From contig NZ_OMPU01000006.1 of assembly GCF_900313065.1 (NCBI RefSeq), positions 440,734 to 504,733 on the forward strand: DNA of 64,000 bases. The letters are read 5' to 3'. A model generated the notes under the pieces. That model did no database searches and was not told where the DNA came from. It saw nothing but the letters and a program-made list of their open reading frames with translations. This document shows, one piece after another, positions 2,977-33,196 of the stretch. A program made the translations under genes and the position numbers. Origin of the DNA: Kiloniella sp. EL199. Its GTDB lineage: Bacteria > Pseudomonadota > Alphaproteobacteria > Kiloniellales > Kiloniellaceae. Every line of letters starts with the position of its first letter. The stretch's first letter is position 1.

Positions 2977-3177
2977 ATTAATCGATTTTTCCAATTATTG
3001 TGATCATAATAACTTGTTGGATCGATTTAAATCAAGGGCGTAATGTTTATTCATCGACCGGCGCAATCCAGACAATATAAGTAAAAATAATTTCAACTTC
3101 ACAACAGGCCGGATGAAGTAGATTTAATCAAAATCCAGCTTTATTTAAGGCTGGGGCAAGGAGAGAAGGTAAGCAGC
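2977..3177. promoter_or_regulatory. oxyR/katA divergent promoter region
   Basis: A 201-base divergent intergenic region that must hold the promoters of both oxyR and katA. It includes an AT-rich stretch around 2990-3030 with partial dyads such as TGATCATAATAA and GATCGATTTAAATC, where an OxyR dimer pair could bind. I could not match a full four-part OxyR site. A good ribosome binding site, AAGGAGAGAAGG, precedes katA at 3159-3170. That OxyR acts here is inferred from layout. Confidence 0.45.
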
Positions 3178-4635
3178 ATGAAAAATAAACTTACAACTGC
3201 ATTCGGTGCTCCGGTTGTAGATAACCAGAACATCCAGACCGCTGGCCCGCGTGGTCCAGCTCTACTACAAGATGTTTGGTTTTTGGAAAAAATGGCTCAT
3301 TTTGACAGAGAGGTCATTCCAGAAAGACGTATGCATGCCAAGGGGTCTGCTGCTTACGGTACATTTACAGTAACGCATGACATTACAAAATATACTAAGG
3401 CCAAGATTTTTTCTGAAATCGGTAAAAAGACGGAAATGTTTCTTCGTTTTTCGACAGTCGCAGGTGAACGTGGTGCGGCTGATGCCGAGCGAGATATTCG
3501 TGGTTTTGCAATGAAGTTTTATACAGAAGAAGGAAACTGGGATCTTGTCGGAAATAACACTCCTGTATTTTTTCTTCGGGACCCTATGAAGTTCCCGGAT
3601 CTAAACCATGCTGTAAAGCGTGATCCAAAAACAAACATGCGCAGTGCTGATAATAATTGGGATTTCTGGACGAGTTTACCGGAAGCTCTGCATCAAGTGA
3701 CAATTGTCATGAGTGACCGGGGGATTCCGGCGACCTATCGTCATATGGATGGTTTTGGTAGTCATACCTTTAGCTTCATCAGTGCTAATAATGAGCGCTA
3801 TTGGGTGAAATTCCATTTTAAAACCCAGCAAGGTATTAAAAACCTTACAGATCAGGAAGCTGCCGAGCTAGTTGGCCAAGACCGCGAAAGCCATCAAAAG
3901 GATCTATTTGATGCAATCGAAAATGGTGATTTCCCCAAATGGATACTCTTTGTTCAGGTGATGCCTGAAAAAGAAGCGGGGTCTTATCATGTCAATCCGT
4001 TCGATCTGACGAAGGTGTGGCCAAAAGCAGATTATCCGTTGATTGAAGTCGGTGAATTTGAACTGAACCGTAATCCTGAAAACTATTTTGCGGAAGTTGA
4101 GCAGTCTGCTTTTAACCCCGGAAATGTTGTTCCTGGTATTAGCTTCTCGCCAGACAAAATGCTGCAAGGGCGTCTGTTCTCATACGGTGATACCCAGCGT
4201 TATCGTCTTGGTGTCAATCATAGCCAGATCCCCGTTAATGCCCCTCGTTGCCCGTTTCATTCTTATCACCGTGATGGGGCAATGCGTGTTGATGGTAATG
4301 GTGGTAGTCGGATTGGTTACGAACCTAATACGAAGGATGAATGGAACGAGCAACCTGATTTTGCTGAACCACCTTTGTCAATCGAAGGGGCGGCAGATCA
4401 CTGGAACCACAGAGAGGATGACGATTACTATTCTCAACCGCGTGCTTTGTTCCAACTGATGACTGCTGAGCAGCAACAAACTCTGTTCGAAAACACAGCA
4501 AGAGCTGTTGGTGGTGCAAAATTGGAAATTCAGCATCGTCATATTCGGAATTGTTACAAAGCAGACCCTGCCTATGGTGCTGGTGTTGCCAAAGCATTAG
4601 GCTTGAATGTTGAAGAGATAGCTGCCGCAGAATAA
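3178..4635 (+). CDS. katA: Catalase (small-subunit, haem b, clade 3 type)
   Basis: A 485-residue monofunctional catalase that breaks hydrogen peroxide into water and oxygen. It has the active-site region around [13 protein letters not shown] (distal His), the [25 protein letters not shown] block, the Asn-containing [13 protein letters not shown] segment, and the proximal haem-ligand motif [14 protein letters not shown] with its tyrosine. The length fits small-subunit catalases and there is no C-terminal flavodoxin-like extension as in KatE. No signal peptide is seen, so it is cytoplasmic. The start ATG at 3178 is preceded by AAGGAGAGAAGG. It lies divergent from oxyR, so induction by peroxide is expected, and it is followed by a strong terminator. 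Confidence 0.96.
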
Positions 4636-4657
4636 GAAATTATTCAAAGGCAGTACG

Positions 4658-4690
4658 AAAGGGAAGGTCGCGCCGGGCCTTCCCTTTTTT
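4658..4690 (+). terminator. katA terminator
   Basis: A perfect 10-bp inverted repeat, AAAGGGAAGG (4658-4667) and CCTTCCCTTT (4678-4687), flanks a GC-rich loop and runs into six T residues. It starts about 20 bases after the katA stop codon, so it is a good intrinsic terminator. Confidence 0.9.
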
Positions 4691-4983
4691 GTATTTGAAT
4701 AACTGGTTAGTTATGTCGAAGTGATTACAACGGTATTTAAGGAAACTGAATATAAAAATTAAAGTAACTTAGGCGTGTATATATTTTGCTTAAATTCATC
4801 TTATTGATGCTGATGTTTGGGTAAATATTCTTTTTTTTTAAGTATTACAGAAATAATATGGTTAATGCTCAAAATTAAATTGATCTTTTATGTTCTATTT
4901 GCTTTCTGATGACAGAGACGGCGCTTTAGTATTGGTTTGAGAACATAGAAGCCCGGTAATTCAAGTTGAAATGGGCTGTGTGT
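4691..4983. other. AT-rich intergenic region before the histidine kinase gene
   Basis: After the katA terminator about 290 bases lack any convincing gene. The stretch is very AT-rich, with several TTAA tetramers, but none of the pairs has 7-base spacing. It presumably carries the promoter of the kinase gene. I could not assign -35/-10 boxes with confidence. Confidence 0.4.
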
Positions 4984-26399: not shown

Positions 26400-26808
26400 T
26401 TATTGTTAATTACAACAATTTTAGATTTTCGATCTGTTTCTTTGGTGAAATGTTCATGTTTACAAAATAGTCTAGGGTTGAACTTGATTTTCTAAAGAGC
26501 TAACGCTCATTACTATAAAATAGAAGTTTTCTTTATTGTCTCATACTGGTTTAAACCACCGCATTCATACGATTAAAAGAGTTAAATTGCATACGAAGCA
26601 CACTCAAAAGACATGAAGTCGACTTAAGTTGGTAGCAACTGTGTTCTTAAACATTTAAATTATCGCGTTCCCGACATTGAATTAGGTTCTGATTTATTTC
26701 GGGACCTAAGATTCAGGTGTGCTCCTGCTGGACTGCAAAACATGATAGGTATATGTTTGCTTTAACTTATGTTGCTTTTTTTCAACCGATAGCACATAAG
26801 GAAATGAG
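26400..26808. other. AT-rich region upstream of the acyltransferase/LuxR pair
   Basis: 409 bases with no gene-like frame. An imperfect 8-bp inverted repeat, TTAGGTTC (26682-26689) and GGACCTAA (26702-26709) with a 12-base spacer, lies about 100 bases before the acyltransferase start and could be an operator for the LuxR-type protein. It is longer than a classical 20-bp lux box, so this is a guess. A good AAGGAAATGAG site precedes the gene. Confidence 0.4.
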
Positions 26809-27291
26809 ATGAGCAAACTGGATGTTATTGTTGTTAGTTCGTTGGATGAATGGGTTCAGTGCCAGCACGTTCGGTCAAGTGCCTTTTTACCGACAGAACC
26901 ATATAGCGAAGAGTTTGATGGTAGGGATTTTGAGTTGGTAACACATATTCTTGCAATCCAAAATACTGTACCTGTTGCTTGTATGCGCCTTAGATATACA
27001 TGTGCAAATACTATACATGGTGGTCGTCTAGCTTTGATGCCAAATTTGGAACCAAGAAATAGACTTAAAACCCTGAATGCGATTGCCACTTTCGCAGACA
27101 ACTATTGTATGAAAATGGGCTTTACCAGAATTTTGGGCGAAGTAGCCGATCAGCGTTTAATTAAGTTTTGGATTAGAAGAGGTTTTAGGCTGACAGGCGA
27201 TCAGCCGATTGAATTTGGCAACAGGCAGTTTTGGCCAATTGAAAAGCATATAAATAGCGCATCAGTTTTAAATAATACTAATAGGATCTAA
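26809..27291 (+). CDS. GNAT/LuxI-like N-acyltransferase, putative signal synthase
   Basis: A 160-residue protein of the GNAT acyltransferase superfamily; no characterised member is recognised. The N-terminal half echoes the LuxI pattern: Arg22 and Phe26 (R-x3-F in HVRSSAF), Tyr32 where LuxI has Trp, an acidic run with Asp37, Asp40 and Glu42, then THILAI and VACMRLRY with Arg60. The C-terminal half looks more like ordinary GNATs: RLALMPNLEPRNRLKTL as an acyl-CoA-loop-like segment and FWIRRGFRL as the late strand. FeeM-type N-acyl amino acid synthases share such a mix. The stop overlaps the start of a LuxR-type gene by one base. The pair is more AT-rich than the neighbouring flagellar genes, which suggests transfer. 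The product, if a signal, is unknown. Confidence 0.65.
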   Translation: MSKLDVIVVSSLDEWVQCQHVRSSAFLPTEPYSEEFDGRDFELVTHILAIQNTVPVACMRLRYTCANTIHGGRLALMPNLEPRNRLKTLNAIATFADNYCMKMGFTRILGEVADQRLIKFWIRRGFRLTGDQPIEFGNRQFWPIEKHINSASVLNNTNRI

Positions 27292-28004
27292 TGATAACTC
27301 GTGAACAAGCCCAGAACTGTAGTAGTCTATCTGATTTTGAGTTACTAGCAAAACAAGATAATCTTTATTTTTATTGGCAAAAACTTACGACTGAGTATGT
27401 TTTTGTTCATGATTGCATGCCGGAAGGTTTTCTTGATGCCTATTATGGCTGTGACTTGGATTTAGTGTGTCCTGGTGCCTGGGCTTTTAGAAAGAGGATT
27501 TGGCCAAAGTTTACTTATCTTCAGGCAAAGAATAATGGCGAGTTTAAGCTTTATGACCCTGATAATTTAAGTGAGAAGCACTGGAACTCCTTTGGTATAA
27601 AGGACTGTCTTGTAATTTTATCGGGATCTCCAGATTTAAATTCAGTCGCATGCTTTGCTTACGATCATGCAATCATTGATCCGACGGGTATATGTTTACC
27701 ATATATTGAGATGACGATGAAGCTTGATAGTTGGCTGTATAATTCGCGACATCTAAAGCCTTATAAAAGGGAGTTCTCAGGTCTTTCTCCTAAAGAGAAA
27801 GAAGCTATTAAAATCCAAATTAATAAACCAGGCTTAACGATTGCTGAACAAGCTAGATATTTGAACATTAGTGTTCCTACCTTGAGAATTAGGAGAGAGA
27901 GAATTGCCAAAAAATATGGCGTTTCTAGTTTTTCTAGTGCAGTTCTTCTCGCAGAGAGATCTAGGGAGTTCTGTTATAGGTCAAATAAGATTAAGGTTGT
28001 TTGA
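27291..28004 (+). CDS. LuxR-type transcriptional regulator
   Basis: A 237-residue protein whose C-terminus (about 165-225) is a LuxR/GerE-like helix-turn-helix: FSGLSPKEKEAIKIQINKPGLTIAEQARYLNISVPTLRIRRERIAKKYGVSS. Residues 1-160 have the size of an autoinducer-binding domain and the WQKLTTEYVFVHDCMPEGFLDAYY segment, but I cannot see the full set of conserved AHL-contact residues (W, Y, D, P, W, G). The HTH spacing is slightly unusual, with RIRRERIAKK where most have V..H...I..KL. AGGA lies before the ATG, and translation is probably coupled to the acyltransferase. It converges on a LysR gene 25 bases away. The likely role is sensing the product of its partner; this is inferred. Confidence 0.7.
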   Translation: MITREQAQNCSSLSDFELLAKQDNLYFYWQKLTTEYVFVHDCMPEGFLDAYYGCDLDLVCPGAWAFRKRIWPKFTYLQAKNNGEFKLYDPDNLSEKHWNSFGIKDCLVILSGSPDLNSVACFAYDHAIIDPTGICLPYIEMTMKLDSWLYNSRHLKPYKREFSGLSPKEKEAIKIQINKPGLTIAEQARYLNISVPTLRIRRERIAKKYGVSSFSSAVLLAERSREFCYRSNKIKVV

Positions 28005-29112: not shown

Positions 29113-30675
29113 ATGAGTGAAGTTGCTGTTTCACCCCGCCGTCGGGGAGGACGTCAAGCCCGCCAAGCCTTGCGTACTGCACCTTTAGCAGAAGACAAAC
29201 GCGCGATCCAACCTGGTTTGGAAAGCGGAAATTACAAAGTTCTCAATGATTTGCAGATCAAGCGTATTCATACTGCGGTATTGGATGTACTGGAGAATAT
29301 TGGACTTGCCGACGCAATCCCGAGCTGTATTGACGTTGTTACGGCTGCGGGTGGTGTCCTTAAAGACAATGGTCGTTTGACCTTTCCACGTGCGCTTGTC
29401 GAAGACATGTTGGTAAAGGTTAACCGCAACGTGGTACTGCATGGGCAGGACCCAAAGCACGATATGGATCTGTCAGGCAGTAAGATCTATTTTGGTACAG
29501 CGGGTGCGGCGGTCCATATGGTCGATGCCCATACAGGGGGCTATCGTGAATCAACCACGCAGGACCTATATGATATCGCACGTATGGTGGACAAGCTGGA
29601 TAATATTCACTTCTTTCAGCGCTCCGTGGTTTGTCGTGATCTCGCAGACCCCTTCGATATGGATTTTAACACCTGCTATGCGGCCATTTCGGGAACCTCT
29701 AAACATGTTGGGTCAAGTTGGGTTGAACCAAGCCATGTAAAAAAATCACTTGAGATGCTGCACACGATCGCAGGTAGTGAAAAGAAATGGCGAGAACGCC
29801 CCTTTGTCAGCATGTCCAATTGCTTTGTGGTGCCGCCTCTCAAGTTTGCGGAAGATGCCTGTCGATGCCTTGAGGTTGCCGTACGTGGAGGAATGCCTGT
29901 GCTTATGCTGTCTGCCGGGCAAGCGGGTGCAACATCGCCGGCTTCATTGGCTGGTTCTGTTGTGCAGGAAGTCGCCGAAGTTCTTGCAGGTCTTGTTTAT
30001 GTAAACGCTGTTCAGCTCGGAGCTCCTGCGGTTTTTGGAACCTGGCCTTTTGTTTCTGATTTAAGAACAGGCGCTATGAGTGGCGGTAGTGGAGAGCAAG
30101 CTTTGCTGGTGGCTGCCTGTGCCCAGATGGGGCGGTTTTATGATTTACCGACCGGGGTTCCCAGTGGAATGTGTGATTCCAAAATTCCTGATTATCAGGC
30201 CGGGGCCGAAAAAGGCTATAATCATGCTGTGACAGGAAATTCGGGAACGAACCTGGTTTATGAAGCGGCTGGCATGCATGCCAGCCTTTTAGGCATGTGT
30301 ATGGAAAGCCTTGTCCTTGATAATGATACAATCGGGTCTGTTTTACGTACGGTTCGGGGTATTGATGTTAACGAAGACACCCTTTCGCTTGAAGCAATTC
30401 GTCAGGTTTGTGAAGAGGGACCGGGGCATTATCTTGGCTCGGATCAAACGCTTTCTGTGATGGAAACAGAATATTTTTATCCCGAAACATCGGATCGTAG
30501 CAGTCCCAATGAATGGGAAGAGAAAGAAAGACCAACATCTCTGTCGAAGGCGACAAACATAGTACGGGAAACAATGAACAGTCATTTTCCACGTCATATC
30601 AGCGATAAAATTGACCAGAAAATCAGGGCTGAATACGATATCAAACTGTCCCGGGATCTGATGACTGCAAAGTAA
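29113..30675 (+). CDS. MttB-family (trimethylamine/quaternary amine) corrinoid methyltransferase
   Basis: A 520-residue protein of the MttB superfamily (TIM barrel), which moves a methyl group from an amine to a corrinoid protein. Recognisable parts are the start of the fold (NDLQIKRIHTAVLDVLENIGLADAIPSCIDVVTAAGG), YFGTAGAAVHMVDAHTGGYRESTTQDLYDIARMVD, and GCxV-like glycine-rich strands. There is no in-frame amber codon, so it is a non-pyrrolysine member; those studied include glycine betaine:corrinoid methyltransferase (MtgB) and related betaine enzymes. No corrinoid-protein gene lies here. GGAG sits before the ATG. Co-directional with the DMGDH-like gene 88 bases downstream, which suggests use of methylated amines such as glycine betaine; the exact substrate is not determined. 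Confidence 0.88.
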   Translation: MSEVAVSPRRRGGRQARQALRTAPLAEDKRAIQPGLESGNYKVLNDLQIKRIHTAVLDVLENIGLADAIPSCIDVVTAAGGVLKDNGRLTFPRALVEDMLVKVNRNVVLHGQDPKHDMDLSGSKIYFGTAGAAVHMVDAHTGGYRESTTQDLYDIARMVDKLDNIHFFQRSVVCRDLADPFDMDFNTCYAAISGTSKHVGSSWVEPSHVKKSLEMLHTIAGSEKKWRERPFVSMSNCFVVPPLKFAEDACRCLEVAVRGGMPVLMLSAGQAGATSPASLAGSVVQEVAEVLAGLVYVNAVQLGAPAVFGTWPFVSDLRTGAMSGGSGEQALLVAACAQMGRFYDLPTGVPSGMCDSKIPDYQAGAEKGYNHAVTGNSGTNLVYEAAGMHASLLGMCMESLVLDNDTIGSVLRTVRGIDVNEDTLSLEAIRQVCEEGPGHYLGSDQTLSVMETEYFYPETSDRSSPNEWEEKERPTSLSKATNIVRETMNSHFPRHISDKIDQKIRAEYDIKLSRDLMTAK

Positions 30676-30763
30676 AGCTTTAAGATCTGGTTATAGAAAA
30701 CTGGATTAAGCCAATAATAAAGTATGATCAAAGGTAAATGATAAGAAGAACAGGACGTGAATT

Positions 30764-33196
30764 ATGAAAAATCATGCAAGAGTTGTCATCATTGGCGGAG
30801 GTGCTGTCGGCTGTAGTGCGGCCTATCATCTGGCAAAAATGGGATGTCGTGATGTTGTGCTGCTCGAAATGGATGAGTTGACGTCTGGTTCTACTTGGCA
30901 TGCCGCTGGAAATTGCCCGACCTATTCCAGCAGTGTCAATATCATGAAGATGCAAACTTATGGTGTTGAATTGTATCATCGGCTTGCGGGCGAAGTTGAC
31001 TATCCCATGAACTATACCCGTACGGGATCCATTCGTTTGGCACAGAGTGATGAACGGATGCTTGAGTTTAAACATGTTCAGGCCATGGCAAAGGCACAGG
31101 GGCTGGATTATGAAATCCTGACGCCTGGTGAAATGAAAGAGTATTATCCTTATTTGGAAATACATGATTGTGTTGGGGGATTGTGGGATCCTTTGGATGG
31201 GGATATTGACCCTAGCCAGTTAACACAGGCCTATGCAAAAGGCGCACGCGATTTGGGGGTACAAATCCAGCGCTTTAATCGGGTGACAGCCATTACACAA
31301 ACCCCGAATGGCGAGTGGCGCGTCGATTGTGAAAAGGGGTCTGTTACCTGTGAAAAGGTCATTAACGCAGGTGGCTATCGAGGCGGTGAAATTGCTGCAA
31401 TGGTTGGACAGTATGTCCCGATCGTGACACTTTCTCATCAGTTTCTGGTAACGGATGCAATACCTGAACTGGAAGCGTTGGATAAAAAGCTACCGCTCTT
31501 CAGAGACCCTGATGATAGCTATTATCTTCGTCAGGAGCGCGCGGGACTTATTCTTGGTCCCTATGAGTGGAAAGCGACCCCCTATTGGCTGGATGGTTTG
31601 CCTGAGAATTTTGCTTCGCAATTGTGGAGTGACGATCTTGATCGGATTGAATGGTACATAAGTCAGGCTATGGCACGTGTTCCTGTTCTTGAAAAGGGCG
31701 GTGTTTCCCGTGTTATCAACGGTCCAATTCCCTACACACCAGATGGTTTGCCTTATATTGGGCCTGCTTACGGACTGGATAATTTCTATCATTGCTGTGG
31801 CTTTAGTTTTGGTATTACTCAATCAGGCGGGGCGGGCAAAATTATTGCCGAGCAAGTTTTGGAAGGTGAGTCTGAATGGGATATGTGGATGCTGGATCCA
31901 CGTCGATATACCGATTATGCTACACAAAAGTATGTCGTTGAAAAGGCGATTGAAGTTTATCAGAACGAATATGCAATTCCTTTTCCTCACGAAGAGCGTC
32001 CTGCAGGCCGCCCCGCAAAAATGACCCCGGTATACGAAAAGCTGAAACAAAAGGGGGCTTTCTTTGGTGCAAGGGGGGGCTGGGAGCGGGCTGTTTGGTT
32101 CCCGCAAACGGATCGTCCTGATGCGCAAACGGTTTCTTTTTTAGATGAGCGTCGAAACTGGAATGATGCCGTTAAATTCGAGTGTAAAGCTGTGCGCGAA
32201 CGTGTCGGTGTTCTAGACCTTGGCGGCTTCACAAAATATGAAGTTACCGGTCCGGGGGCAACGGCATGGCTTGATTACATGATTGCGGGGAAAATGCCAC
32301 GGGTTGGTGGTATGTCCCTGTCATACTTCCTGTCTCGCAAAGGTCATGTGATGACGGAAATGACCATCACAAGGTTGGCGGAAGATCACTACTGGCTTAT
32401 TTCTGCCGGTGCGGGTGAGTGGCATGATGAAGACTGGCTTCTCTCGAACATGCCGGGCGATGGTTCCGTCGAGTTTGAAAACCTCACTGATCGCTATGGA
32501 ACACTGGTTGTGGCTGGACCTCGTTCCAGGGATCTGCTTGGCAAAATTACCAAATCAGACCTTTCCAACACGGCTTTCCCCTGGCTTACAACCCAGAGCA
32601 TGGAAATTGGGTATTGTCCTGATATTCTGGCCATGCGGGTTAACTATGTTGGTGAACTCGGTTGGGAATTACATGTCCCCATGGAGTTCCTGGGGCAGGT
32701 ATATGATAATGTAATGGAGGCGGGTGAAGAGTATGGTGTTGCCGATTTCGGCCTCTATGCCATGGATTCATTACGGCTGGAGAAATGTTATCGCTCCTGG
32801 AAGGTTGATATCATTCATGAATATACACCTTTTGAATTGTCCTTGGATCGGTTTGTTGATTTGGATAAAGGCCCGTTCCTGGGGCGTGAAGCTTTAAAAA
32901 AGCATCTTGAAGGCGGTATCAAGGAAAGGTTTGTTCCTTTGATTATTGATACGACCATTGCTGAGGCACCTTACTGTTCACCAATTTTCAAAGGTGATGA
33001 AATTGTCGGGATATCTTCATCTGGCGGATATGGCCATACAATCGAAAAGAATATTGCCTTGAGCTTTGTTCGAACTGATTTGGCTGTAGAAGGGACTGAA
33101 CTTGAAGTCAGTATTCTGGGAAAACGTTATCCTGCGATTGTTTCCAGTGAGCCACTCTATGATCCGAAAAACAAAAAGCTTCGTGATGTAGAATAG
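30764..33196 (+). CDS. Dimethylglycine/sarcosine dehydrogenase-like FAD protein with GcvT domains
   Basis: An 810-residue, two-part enzyme. The N-terminal half is a DAO-type FAD oxidoreductase (dinucleotide motif VVIIGGGAVGCSAAYHLAKMG; His46 in GSTWHAAGN, which in dimethylglycine dehydrogenase carries covalent FAD). The C-terminal half, from about residue 430, is a GcvT-like folate-binding domain (GVLDLGGFTKYEVTGPGATAWLD, GELGWELHVP, then the GcvT C-terminal barrel). It would oxidise an N-methyl group and hand the one-carbon unit to tetrahydrofolate. It follows mttB with AGGACG before its ATG. It may act after loss of a methyl group by the MttB protein. Electron acceptor and substrate (dimethylglycine, sarcosine or other) are not certain. 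Confidence 0.9.
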   Translation: MKNHARVVIIGGGAVGCSAAYHLAKMGCRDVVLLEMDELTSGSTWHAAGNCPTYSSSVNIMKMQTYGVELYHRLAGEVDYPMNYTRTGSIRLAQSDERMLEFKHVQAMAKAQGLDYEILTPGEMKEYYPYLEIHDCVGGLWDPLDGDIDPSQLTQAYAKGARDLGVQIQRFNRVTAITQTPNGEWRVDCEKGSVTCEKVINAGGYRGGEIAAMVGQYVPIVTLSHQFLVTDAIPELEALDKKLPLFRDPDDSYYLRQERAGLILGPYEWKATPYWLDGLPENFASQLWSDDLDRIEWYISQAMARVPVLEKGGVSRVINGPIPYTPDGLPYIGPAYGLDNFYHCCGFSFGITQSGGAGKIIAEQVLEGESEWDMWMLDPRRYTDYATQKYVVEKAIEVYQNEYAIPFPHEERPAGRPAKMTPVYEKLKQKGAFFGARGGWERAVWFPQTDRPDAQTVSFLDERRNWNDAVKFECKAVRERVGVLDLGGFTKYEVTGPGATAWLDYMIAGKMPRVGGMSLSYFLSRKGHVMTEMTITRLAEDHYWLISAGAGEWHDEDWLLSNMPGDGSVEFENLTDRYGTLVVAGPRSRDLLGKITKSDLSNTAFPWLTTQSMEIGYCPDILAMRVNYVGELGWELHVPMEFLGQVYDNVMEAGEEYGVADFGLYAMDSLRLEKCYRSWKVDIIHEYTPFELSLDRFVDLDKGPFLGREALKKHLEGGIKERFVPLIIDTTIAEAPYCSPIFKGDEIVGISSSGGYGHTIEKNIALSFVRTDLAVEGTELEVSILGKRYPAIVSSEPLYDPKNKKLRDVE

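Follow-up and report, generated by a model that had tools for sequence, protein, structure and literature searches.

A candidate signalling pair of an ElaA/YjcF-like acyltransferase and a divergent LuxR-type regulator in Kiloniella and other Alphaproteobacteria

Two overlapping genes in a 64,000-nucleotide stretch of Kiloniella sp. EL199 (contig NZ_OMPU01000006.1; hereafter the window, whose numbering is used below) raise the question of whether a small GNAT-type acyltransferase makes the ligand of the LuxR-type regulator encoded directly downstream. The original prediction had taken them for a candidate undescribed signalling pair with a LuxI-like enzyme. We found a coupled acyltransferase/LuxR pair that recurs in other genomes, and a literature search, with subscription papers mostly outside its scope, turned up no account of a LuxR regulator that has an ElaA-like GNAT as its partner; the likeness of the enzyme to LuxI did not stand. 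The features that define the locus are:

26809..27291, + strand: GNAT-type acyltransferase of 160 amino acids, ElaA/YjcF-like, candidate ligand synthase (open reading frame, family profile, ratio of nonsynonymous to synonymous substitution rates (dN/dS))
27291..28004, + strand: LuxR-type regulator of 237 amino acids with a divergent autoinducer-binding-like domain and a GerE-like helix-turn-helix (HTH) (open reading frame, family profile, dN/dS)
27289..27293, + strand: TAATG overlap of the GNAT stop and the LuxR start, probable translational coupling (read from the sequence)

Both reading frames have the ends first described for them, and base 27291 is common to the stop of one and the start of the other, an arrangement that probably couples translation of LuxR to that of the GNAT.

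Recurrence of the pair and its phage counterpart

Survey of gene neighbours confirmed that the two genes are conserved together in Kiloniella, in f112 (the alphaproteobacterial family of genome G358) and, as one further lineage, in genome G099. A related GNAT lies directly upstream of 19 of the 21 full-length regulators: three at the window's kind of locus (pair A), four of five at a paralogous locus (pair B), 11 of 12 in f112 and one in G099. By comparison, none of 29 control loci (L109-L137), taken from a phylum-wide regulator search and matched in the C-terminal HTH-bearing half only, has such a GNAT within 1.5 kb; many of the counts given here rest on loci of only 3-4 kb. The phylum-wide search covered 398 genomes and matched 186 at 1e-5. 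Among the matches listed outside the own genome, scores were at most 38.9 bits and nearly all lay in the C-terminal half, with two reaching further in (G741, positions 40-230, 31.1 bits; G698, positions 76-229, 28.4 bits). A regulator profile matched 9 of 385 alphaproteobacterial genomes; seven matches cover the ligand domain, all seven with an adjoining GNAT-profile match, and those in G261 and G398 are confined to the HTH part. Conversely, a GNAT stands beside a regulator of this family in only 7 of 42 genomes with a GNAT-profile match, and therefore most relatives of the enzyme are unpaired.

Pair A occurs in three of nine genus genomes (EL199, G003 and G007), always between fliJ and LysR; five fairly complete genomes of the genus lack it (G001, G002, G004, G006 and G008). 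G003 appears to be the same genome as K. spongiae MEBiC09566 (L001), the nearest named relative of EL199. Pair B, about 24-29% identical to pair A, has both genes in G003, G004, G006 and G007. EL199 has kept the pair-B regulator (L089:5671-6453, contig C19) as an open frame of 260 codons, with an extra in-frame stretch repeating part of the conserved CPVA region and with its VOC-like and XRE neighbours, and no GNAT-B was found. In f112 the regulator is found in 11 of 14 genomes; the full-length locus lacking the enzyme is G805:C2, and a thirteenth, partial match has no GNAT either.

The GNAT gene precedes the regulator in all 20 pairs, counting one in a phage. Taking the start codons as called, an overlap of the two genes is also seen in K. 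spongiae, G007 pair A, six of the 11 f112 pairs, G099 and the phage; the spacing is 8-9 bases at four pair-B loci and 0 to 215 bases in the five other f112 pairs. Distances among GNATs and among LuxR proteins correlate over 17 pairs (rho 0.89; none of 2000 permutations as high), as expected of any co-inherited genes. The neighbouring genes, by eye, differ between lineages, as they do at stand-alone luxI/luxR pairs. Between the window and K. spongiae the GNAT is 82% and the LuxR 91% identical; because dN/dS is 0.08 and 0.05, respectively (four flanking genes 0.014-0.024; dS 0.8-1.5, near saturation), both genes are under purifying selection and are not decaying.

In a tree of 45 GNATs (19 paired, 26 others; 16 of the 47 places with a GNAT match were left out), the 19 paired GNATs and one phage GNAT fall on one side of a branch with support 90/88, which is not a strong value. 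A LuxR-type gene adjoins all 20 GNATs on this side, whereas profiles of this regulator family and of canonical LuxR found no LuxR-type gene beside the 25 other rows, within about 1.5-3 kb on each side or less at contig ends. Tandem unpaired GNAT relatives, two each, occur in three genomes of one genus (G125, G337 and G414; L072, L076 and L077).

The phage pair (IMG/VR contig 3300037780_000213, L104, positions 2980-4202) lies among tail genes and on the strand opposite to them, adjoining a tail tube gene (PF18906, 7.9e-49). Its LuxR, of 256 amino acids, has a start codon that overlaps the GNAT stop, the two genes sharing 4 bases (ATGA). This regulator is canonical (Autoind_bind 6.3e-24, GerE 1.5e-15) and, in alignment with LuxR proteins of the genus, has W, Y, D, P, W and G at the acyl-homoserine lactone (AHL) positions. 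As judged from these comparisons, GNATs of the paired group have partners from two separate branches of LuxR-type receptors, and this is the strongest hint that the product of the enzyme may be what the LuxR domains sense. The regulator profile found no relative among viral contigs, where the phage GNAT and LuxR used as queries returned the same contig and no other; against 50,697 phage records the phage GNAT had no match and the phage LuxR had 32. Passages of a paper on Roseobacter CHUG phages mention LuxR and GNAT genes in phages separately (PMC11288001). Three viral contigs (L105:2995-3555, L106:1-666 and L107:1842-2615) carry unpaired GNAT relatives with a C-terminal LRPEGxWDxPGI stretch; by eye, a small open reading frame stands beside the GNAT in L105 and L107, and a LysR-like one in L107.

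The enzyme, the ligand pocket and their proposed roles

Scanned alone, the window GNAT had no Pfam or NCBIfam match at E up to 1. A 17-row GNAT profile searched against solved structures matched SACOL1063 (4e-13), the YjcF-type protein 1q2y (1.7e-8), PA0115 (9e-6), 3efa and ElaA (3.4e-3), in that order, indicating that the enzyme is closest to ElaA/YjcF-type GNATs among them. Directly below came LuxI-family chains, the autoinducer synthase 5w8c (E 0.16) and the 4-coumaroyl-homoserine lactone synthase 6wn0 (E 0.86), whose matches span the N-terminal motif. Compared with seven LuxI proteins of the genus, the profile gave an hhalign probability of 1-3%, and the Pfam scan found no match of the window GNAT to PF00765 (Autoind_synth), a family present in five of nine genus genomes and not found in the own genome. 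On these profile comparisons we rejected the GNAT as a LuxI homologue. Of the two outcomes named at the outset as counting against a signalling pair, a best alignment with acetyltransferases was thus found, and a failure of the two genes to recur together was not.

A LuxI signature of R, F, W, E, D, D, R, E and R is invariant in the seven LuxI proteins of the genus. The marks first noted in the window GNAT (R22-x3-F26, an acidic EEFDGRD run and MRLRY) are all there, and R22, F26, D37, D40 and R60 are invariant in 17 of 17 family GNATs; W34 and the E-x2-R pair of LuxI are absent from the family. The same R, F, E, D, D, R pattern aligns in PA0115, an ElaA-type GNAT, and therefore the marks belong to a wider GNAT branch and are not specific to LuxI. 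None of the 19 paired GNATs has the acetyl-CoA loop RxxGxG/A where it is expected, and two of them show a chance match elsewhere; in the window GNAT, residues 73-103, the expected site, contain no Gly. Four of 26 rows classed as unpaired (L070, L073, L088 and L020) have the loop at its place. At E up to 1, FeeM matches 7 of 12 paired members and an exosortase-associated acyltransferase family 5 of the 9 rows of GNAT alignment A1. FeeM (PF21926) is the best Pfam match, under its cut-off, in 2 of 10 members scanned singly, and did not match the window GNAT. The Glu of the WERLAV strand, kept in most paired GNATs, is Gly in the window (IHGGRLAL), K. spongiae, G007 pair A and G800.

TraR is the best solved relative of a 17-row regulator profile (E 4e-8, positions 19-227, i.e. 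both domains), and hhalign of a 12-row regulator alignment with eight canonical Kiloniella LuxR proteins gave 96.4% (1.2e-9, 216 columns), indicating that the regulator is related to TraR/LuxR over two domains. No scanned regulator reached the Pfam cut-offs (Autoind_bind best 18.2 against 23 bits; GerE best 22.2 against 23.5, with 12.4 bits for the window regulator). AHL-pocket residues given for LuxR receptors are W57, Y61, D70, P71, W85 and G113 in TraR numbering (passages of PMC4414361 and PMC10134790). When the 21 full-length regulators were mapped to this numbering through alignments, the D70 position was Cys in every one (Cys60 in the window) and the Y61 position always Tyr. The W57 position is F in 20 and S in one, with W in none; P71 is P in 14 and A in seven; W85 is F in 17, Y in two, W in one and H in one; and G113 is G in 18 and C in all three pair-A regulators. 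By these alignments the family does not carry the full AHL-receptor motif. The invariant Cys is unusual because in PluR and PauR both Y and D are retained (TYDQCS, TYDQYI), and W57M and Y61W mark the plant-associated group, as given in parts of PMC4414361. The change of D70 to Cys would fit a non-AHL ligand, and we infer a non-AHL signal.

We propose, giving it about an even chance, that the GNAT makes the ligand of its LuxR, forming a non-AHL pair that would work like LuxI/LuxR with an independently recruited synthase. The GNAT would be translated first and LuxR coupled to it; the enzyme would acylate a small amine or an amino acid, making or completing a ligand that may fill the autoinducer-binding-like pocket of LuxR, with Cys60 in place of the usual Asp. 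Ligand-bound LuxR would control promoters, probably including its own, and the acyl-modified non-AHL product would leave the cell as a signal. As a precedent, the GNAT OatA is reported to make a regulatory metabolite, N,O-diacetylserine, and thereby to raise cysteine biosynthesis (PMC6277577).

Several results weigh against this proposal. The tree branch that sets the paired GNATs apart lacks strong support, L098 and L099 are long branches, and the contrast between paired and unpaired rows is partly a matter of sampling because some paired rows were collected through the regulator. The regulators of own-genome pair B and of G805 stand without a GNAT. The enzyme has no close relation to LuxI; loss of the acetyl-CoA loop, seen in most unpaired relatives too, is not distinctive of paired GNATs; and the FeeM cut-off of 27 bits was passed by none of the 10 members scanned singly (best 24.0 bits, G004 pair B), with Acetyltransf_1 above its cut-off in three of them (G435, G164 and G099). 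Pair A lacks the WERLAV Glu, and therefore its catalysis may differ. At G358 the gene beside the pair encodes a solute-binding protein, which would fit a metabolite sensor as well.

Less likely is feedback or detoxification, in which LuxR senses a metabolite or foreign amine that the GNAT acetylates and removes, giving local homeostasis and no exported signal. Many self-regulated enzyme operons encode an enzyme together with its own regulator, and here the GNAT and regulator form one apparent transcription unit. Acetyltransferases as the closest solved relatives, the three members above the Acetyltransf_1 cut-off, and, by eye, ABC-transporter-like genes with the solute-binding-protein gene at G358 would all suit such a role. 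However, the regulator has its relatives among autoinducer-binding LuxR proteins, a class to which the phage partner belongs; no paired GNAT has the acetyl-CoA loop at the expected site; and no transporter or catabolic gene recurs, by eye, beside the pair across lineages.

Post-translational control, in which the GNAT would acylate its LuxR partner or another protein and so set its activity, seems improbable. It would be consistent with the tight pairing and co-variation of the two proteins, and ElaA occurs four times in a 2018 mBio paper on E. coli protein lysine acetyltransferases (PMC6199490). Yet regulators persist without a GNAT in own-genome pair B and G805, and a phage GNAT paired with a regulator of a different LuxR branch is unexpected if the substrate is a specific protein.

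That the enzyme is a true, very divergent LuxI making AHL is very unlikely: the R, F, E, D, D, R residues spaced nearly as in LuxI, the LuxI-family chains next below the ElaA-type matches and the AHL-type residues of the phage partner speak for it, but the protein and its genome lack PF00765, hhalign gave 1-3%, W34 and E-x2-R are missing, and none of the 21 paired-family regulators has D70. Least credible is a toxin-antitoxin-like system, with a GNAT toxin that would acetylate tRNA or protein and the HTH protein as antitoxin, since GNAT toxins, which at about 160-175 amino acids are of similar size, carry the acetyl-CoA loop missing here, its partner, at about 230-260 amino acids, is related to LuxR over two domains and is not a ribbon-helix-helix antitoxin, and the GNAT gene comes first in every pair, despite one phage-borne copy and the loss of a GNAT with its partner kept in own-genome pair B.

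Upstream sequences and genomic setting

The gap before the GNAT gene spans 409 bases in the window (26400-26808), as originally described, 209 in K. spongiae and 166 in G007, and the window and K. spongiae sequences align well only in the roughly 100 bases next to the GNAT start. Searched for elsewhere in the genome, the extra 200 bases gave one weak match of 71%. A dyad at 26682-26709 exists as predicted, with 7 of 8 arm positions matching, but it is unconserved and at chance level: three dyads in the gap match at 7/8 or better, and 200 single-base shuffles gave 4.7 on average. We rejected it as an operator, as it is also absent in alignment from the shorter gaps of K. spongiae and G007. No palindrome with 9-bp halves was found at 8/9 in 12 regions upstream of GNAT genes. 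A different repeat lies nearer the gene:

26766..26800, + strand: inverted repeat CTTATGT...ACATAAG upstream of the GNAT gene (in the window and K. spongiae)

The 3' arm of this repeat extends into AAGGAA (26798-26803), the probable ribosome-binding site of the GNAT gene. A stem taking in the ribosome-binding site is present in all seven Kiloniella loci folded, with z values (from 100 single-base shuffles) of -1.0 in the window and -1.4 in K. spongiae, both weak, and -2.5 to -3.4, which is strong, in five others; five non-Kiloniella loci gave -1.7 to +2.0. Such stems could act in translational control or be operator dyads. The pair-B stems are unrelated in sequence to the pair-A repeat. At all four Kiloniella pair-B loci with the enzyme (L091:6500-6545, L092, L093 and L009), an 11-base inverted repeat, TTATTCTAACG...CGTTAGGATAA, lies over the GNAT-B ribosome-binding site, with G-U pairs in two loci and one broken pair in G007.

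The pair is AT-rich, as first noted: GC content is 39.5% in the GNAT and 37.1% in the LuxR reading frame, against 44.7% in the window, and among 52 window reading frames these rank third lowest and lowest. The order fliI-fliJ-GNAT-LuxR-LysR-mttB (flanking names by eye) is identical in the window and K. spongiae. An insertion between flagellar and amine-use genes, as originally suggested, is weakly supported by the low GC and by the position between fliJ and LysR in three of nine genus genomes. By eye, the window also holds, at 29113-33196 and inside flagellar genes, an mttB-like methyltransferase (520 amino acids) and a dimethylglycine dehydrogenase-like protein (810 amino acids), and the LysR gene separates the pair from these two. 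A plasmid origin was rejected after the pair-A and one pair-B regulator matched none of 72,556 plasmid records; a pair-B GNAT query returned two distant GNATs from them. Elsewhere in the own genome a canonical luxR stands alone (C19:402936-403370; L090:4871-5596), and where K. spongiae has luxI (L100:5922-6587) there are reading frames that by eye resemble IS3-type transposases (L090:3708-4436 and 4427-4720).

Of the 21 regulator loci, 11 have an XRE-type regulator gene within about 2 kb: the five pair-B loci of Kiloniella, the orphan included, and six f112 loci (G358, G435, G269, G807, G809 C1 and G804). No such gene turned up at pair A, G164, G806, G808, G809 C14, G800, G805 or G099, the last of which carries a different HTH gene, nor at the phage locus (best score 1.5 bits). 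A model built from two of the positive loci, applied to loci mostly of +/-1.5 kb, matched 9 of 20 module loci, none of 24 unpaired GNAT loci, 1 of 29 C-terminal-half controls and none of eight canonical luxI/luxR loci; the own genome has two matches to the pair-B XRE, one of them at pair B. In Phaeobacter prophages, xre-luxR-luxI operons are described, and deletion of xre abolished a lysogeny promoter in one of two phages (passages of the preprint PMC13345283).

Comparison with known systems

Taken across these loci, it is possible, though short of probable, that the pairs form an undescribed signalling class: ElaA-like GNAT synthases recruited independently of LuxI, a non-AHL ligand and a LuxR subfamily with an invariant Cys for Asp would be spread over several alphaproteobacterial lineages, with XRE near about half of the loci and a phage carrying a synthase of this kind together with an AHL-type receptor. 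Quorum-sensing systems are usually sought with two profiles, PF00765 (synthase) and PF03472 (receptor). Since neither profile was passed here, the pair would probably be annotated as an acetyltransferase and a helix-turn-helix protein and overlooked. PF00765 serves as the synthase filter in passages of PMC13345283. If the GNAT makes the ligand, it would be a second, independently recruited synthase family for LuxR-type signalling, probably with new signal chemistry, and the invariant Cys would offer a direct way into the search for the ligand; LuxR 'solos' would then have to be recounted, because some partners are not LuxI.

As in LuxI/LuxR systems, a small acyltransferase-type enzyme is coupled to a two-domain LuxR in a stand-alone pair, and some genomes have receptors that lack the enzyme; unlike them, the enzyme is ElaA/YjcF-like and the regulator has F-Y-C-P/A-F/Y-G/C at the W-Y-D-P-W-G positions. 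Among ElaA, YjcF, PA0115 and SACOL1063, the best relatives of the paired GNATs among solved structures, we know of no LuxR partner, and SACOL1063 keeps the acetyl-CoA loop (RGQGMG) that paired GNATs lack. FeeM-type N-acyl amino acid synthases and exosortase-associated acyltransferases share the GNAT superfamily and give hidden Markov model matches in several members, although the curated FeeM cut-off was reached by none. PluR/PauR and the plant-associated LuxR group resemble the regulator in having a LuxR fold, altered ligand-pocket residues and a non-AHL ligand, whereas here D70 itself, retained in PluR and PauR, is Cys and an enzyme is encoded next door (passages of PMC4414361). Finally, the Phaeobacter prophage operons likewise place XRE beside a synthase/LuxR pair on alphaproteobacterial phages, but their synthase is a PF00765 LuxI where ours is an ElaA-like GNAT, and the XRE gene accompanies only some of our loci and none of pair A (passages of PMC13345283 for the prophages).

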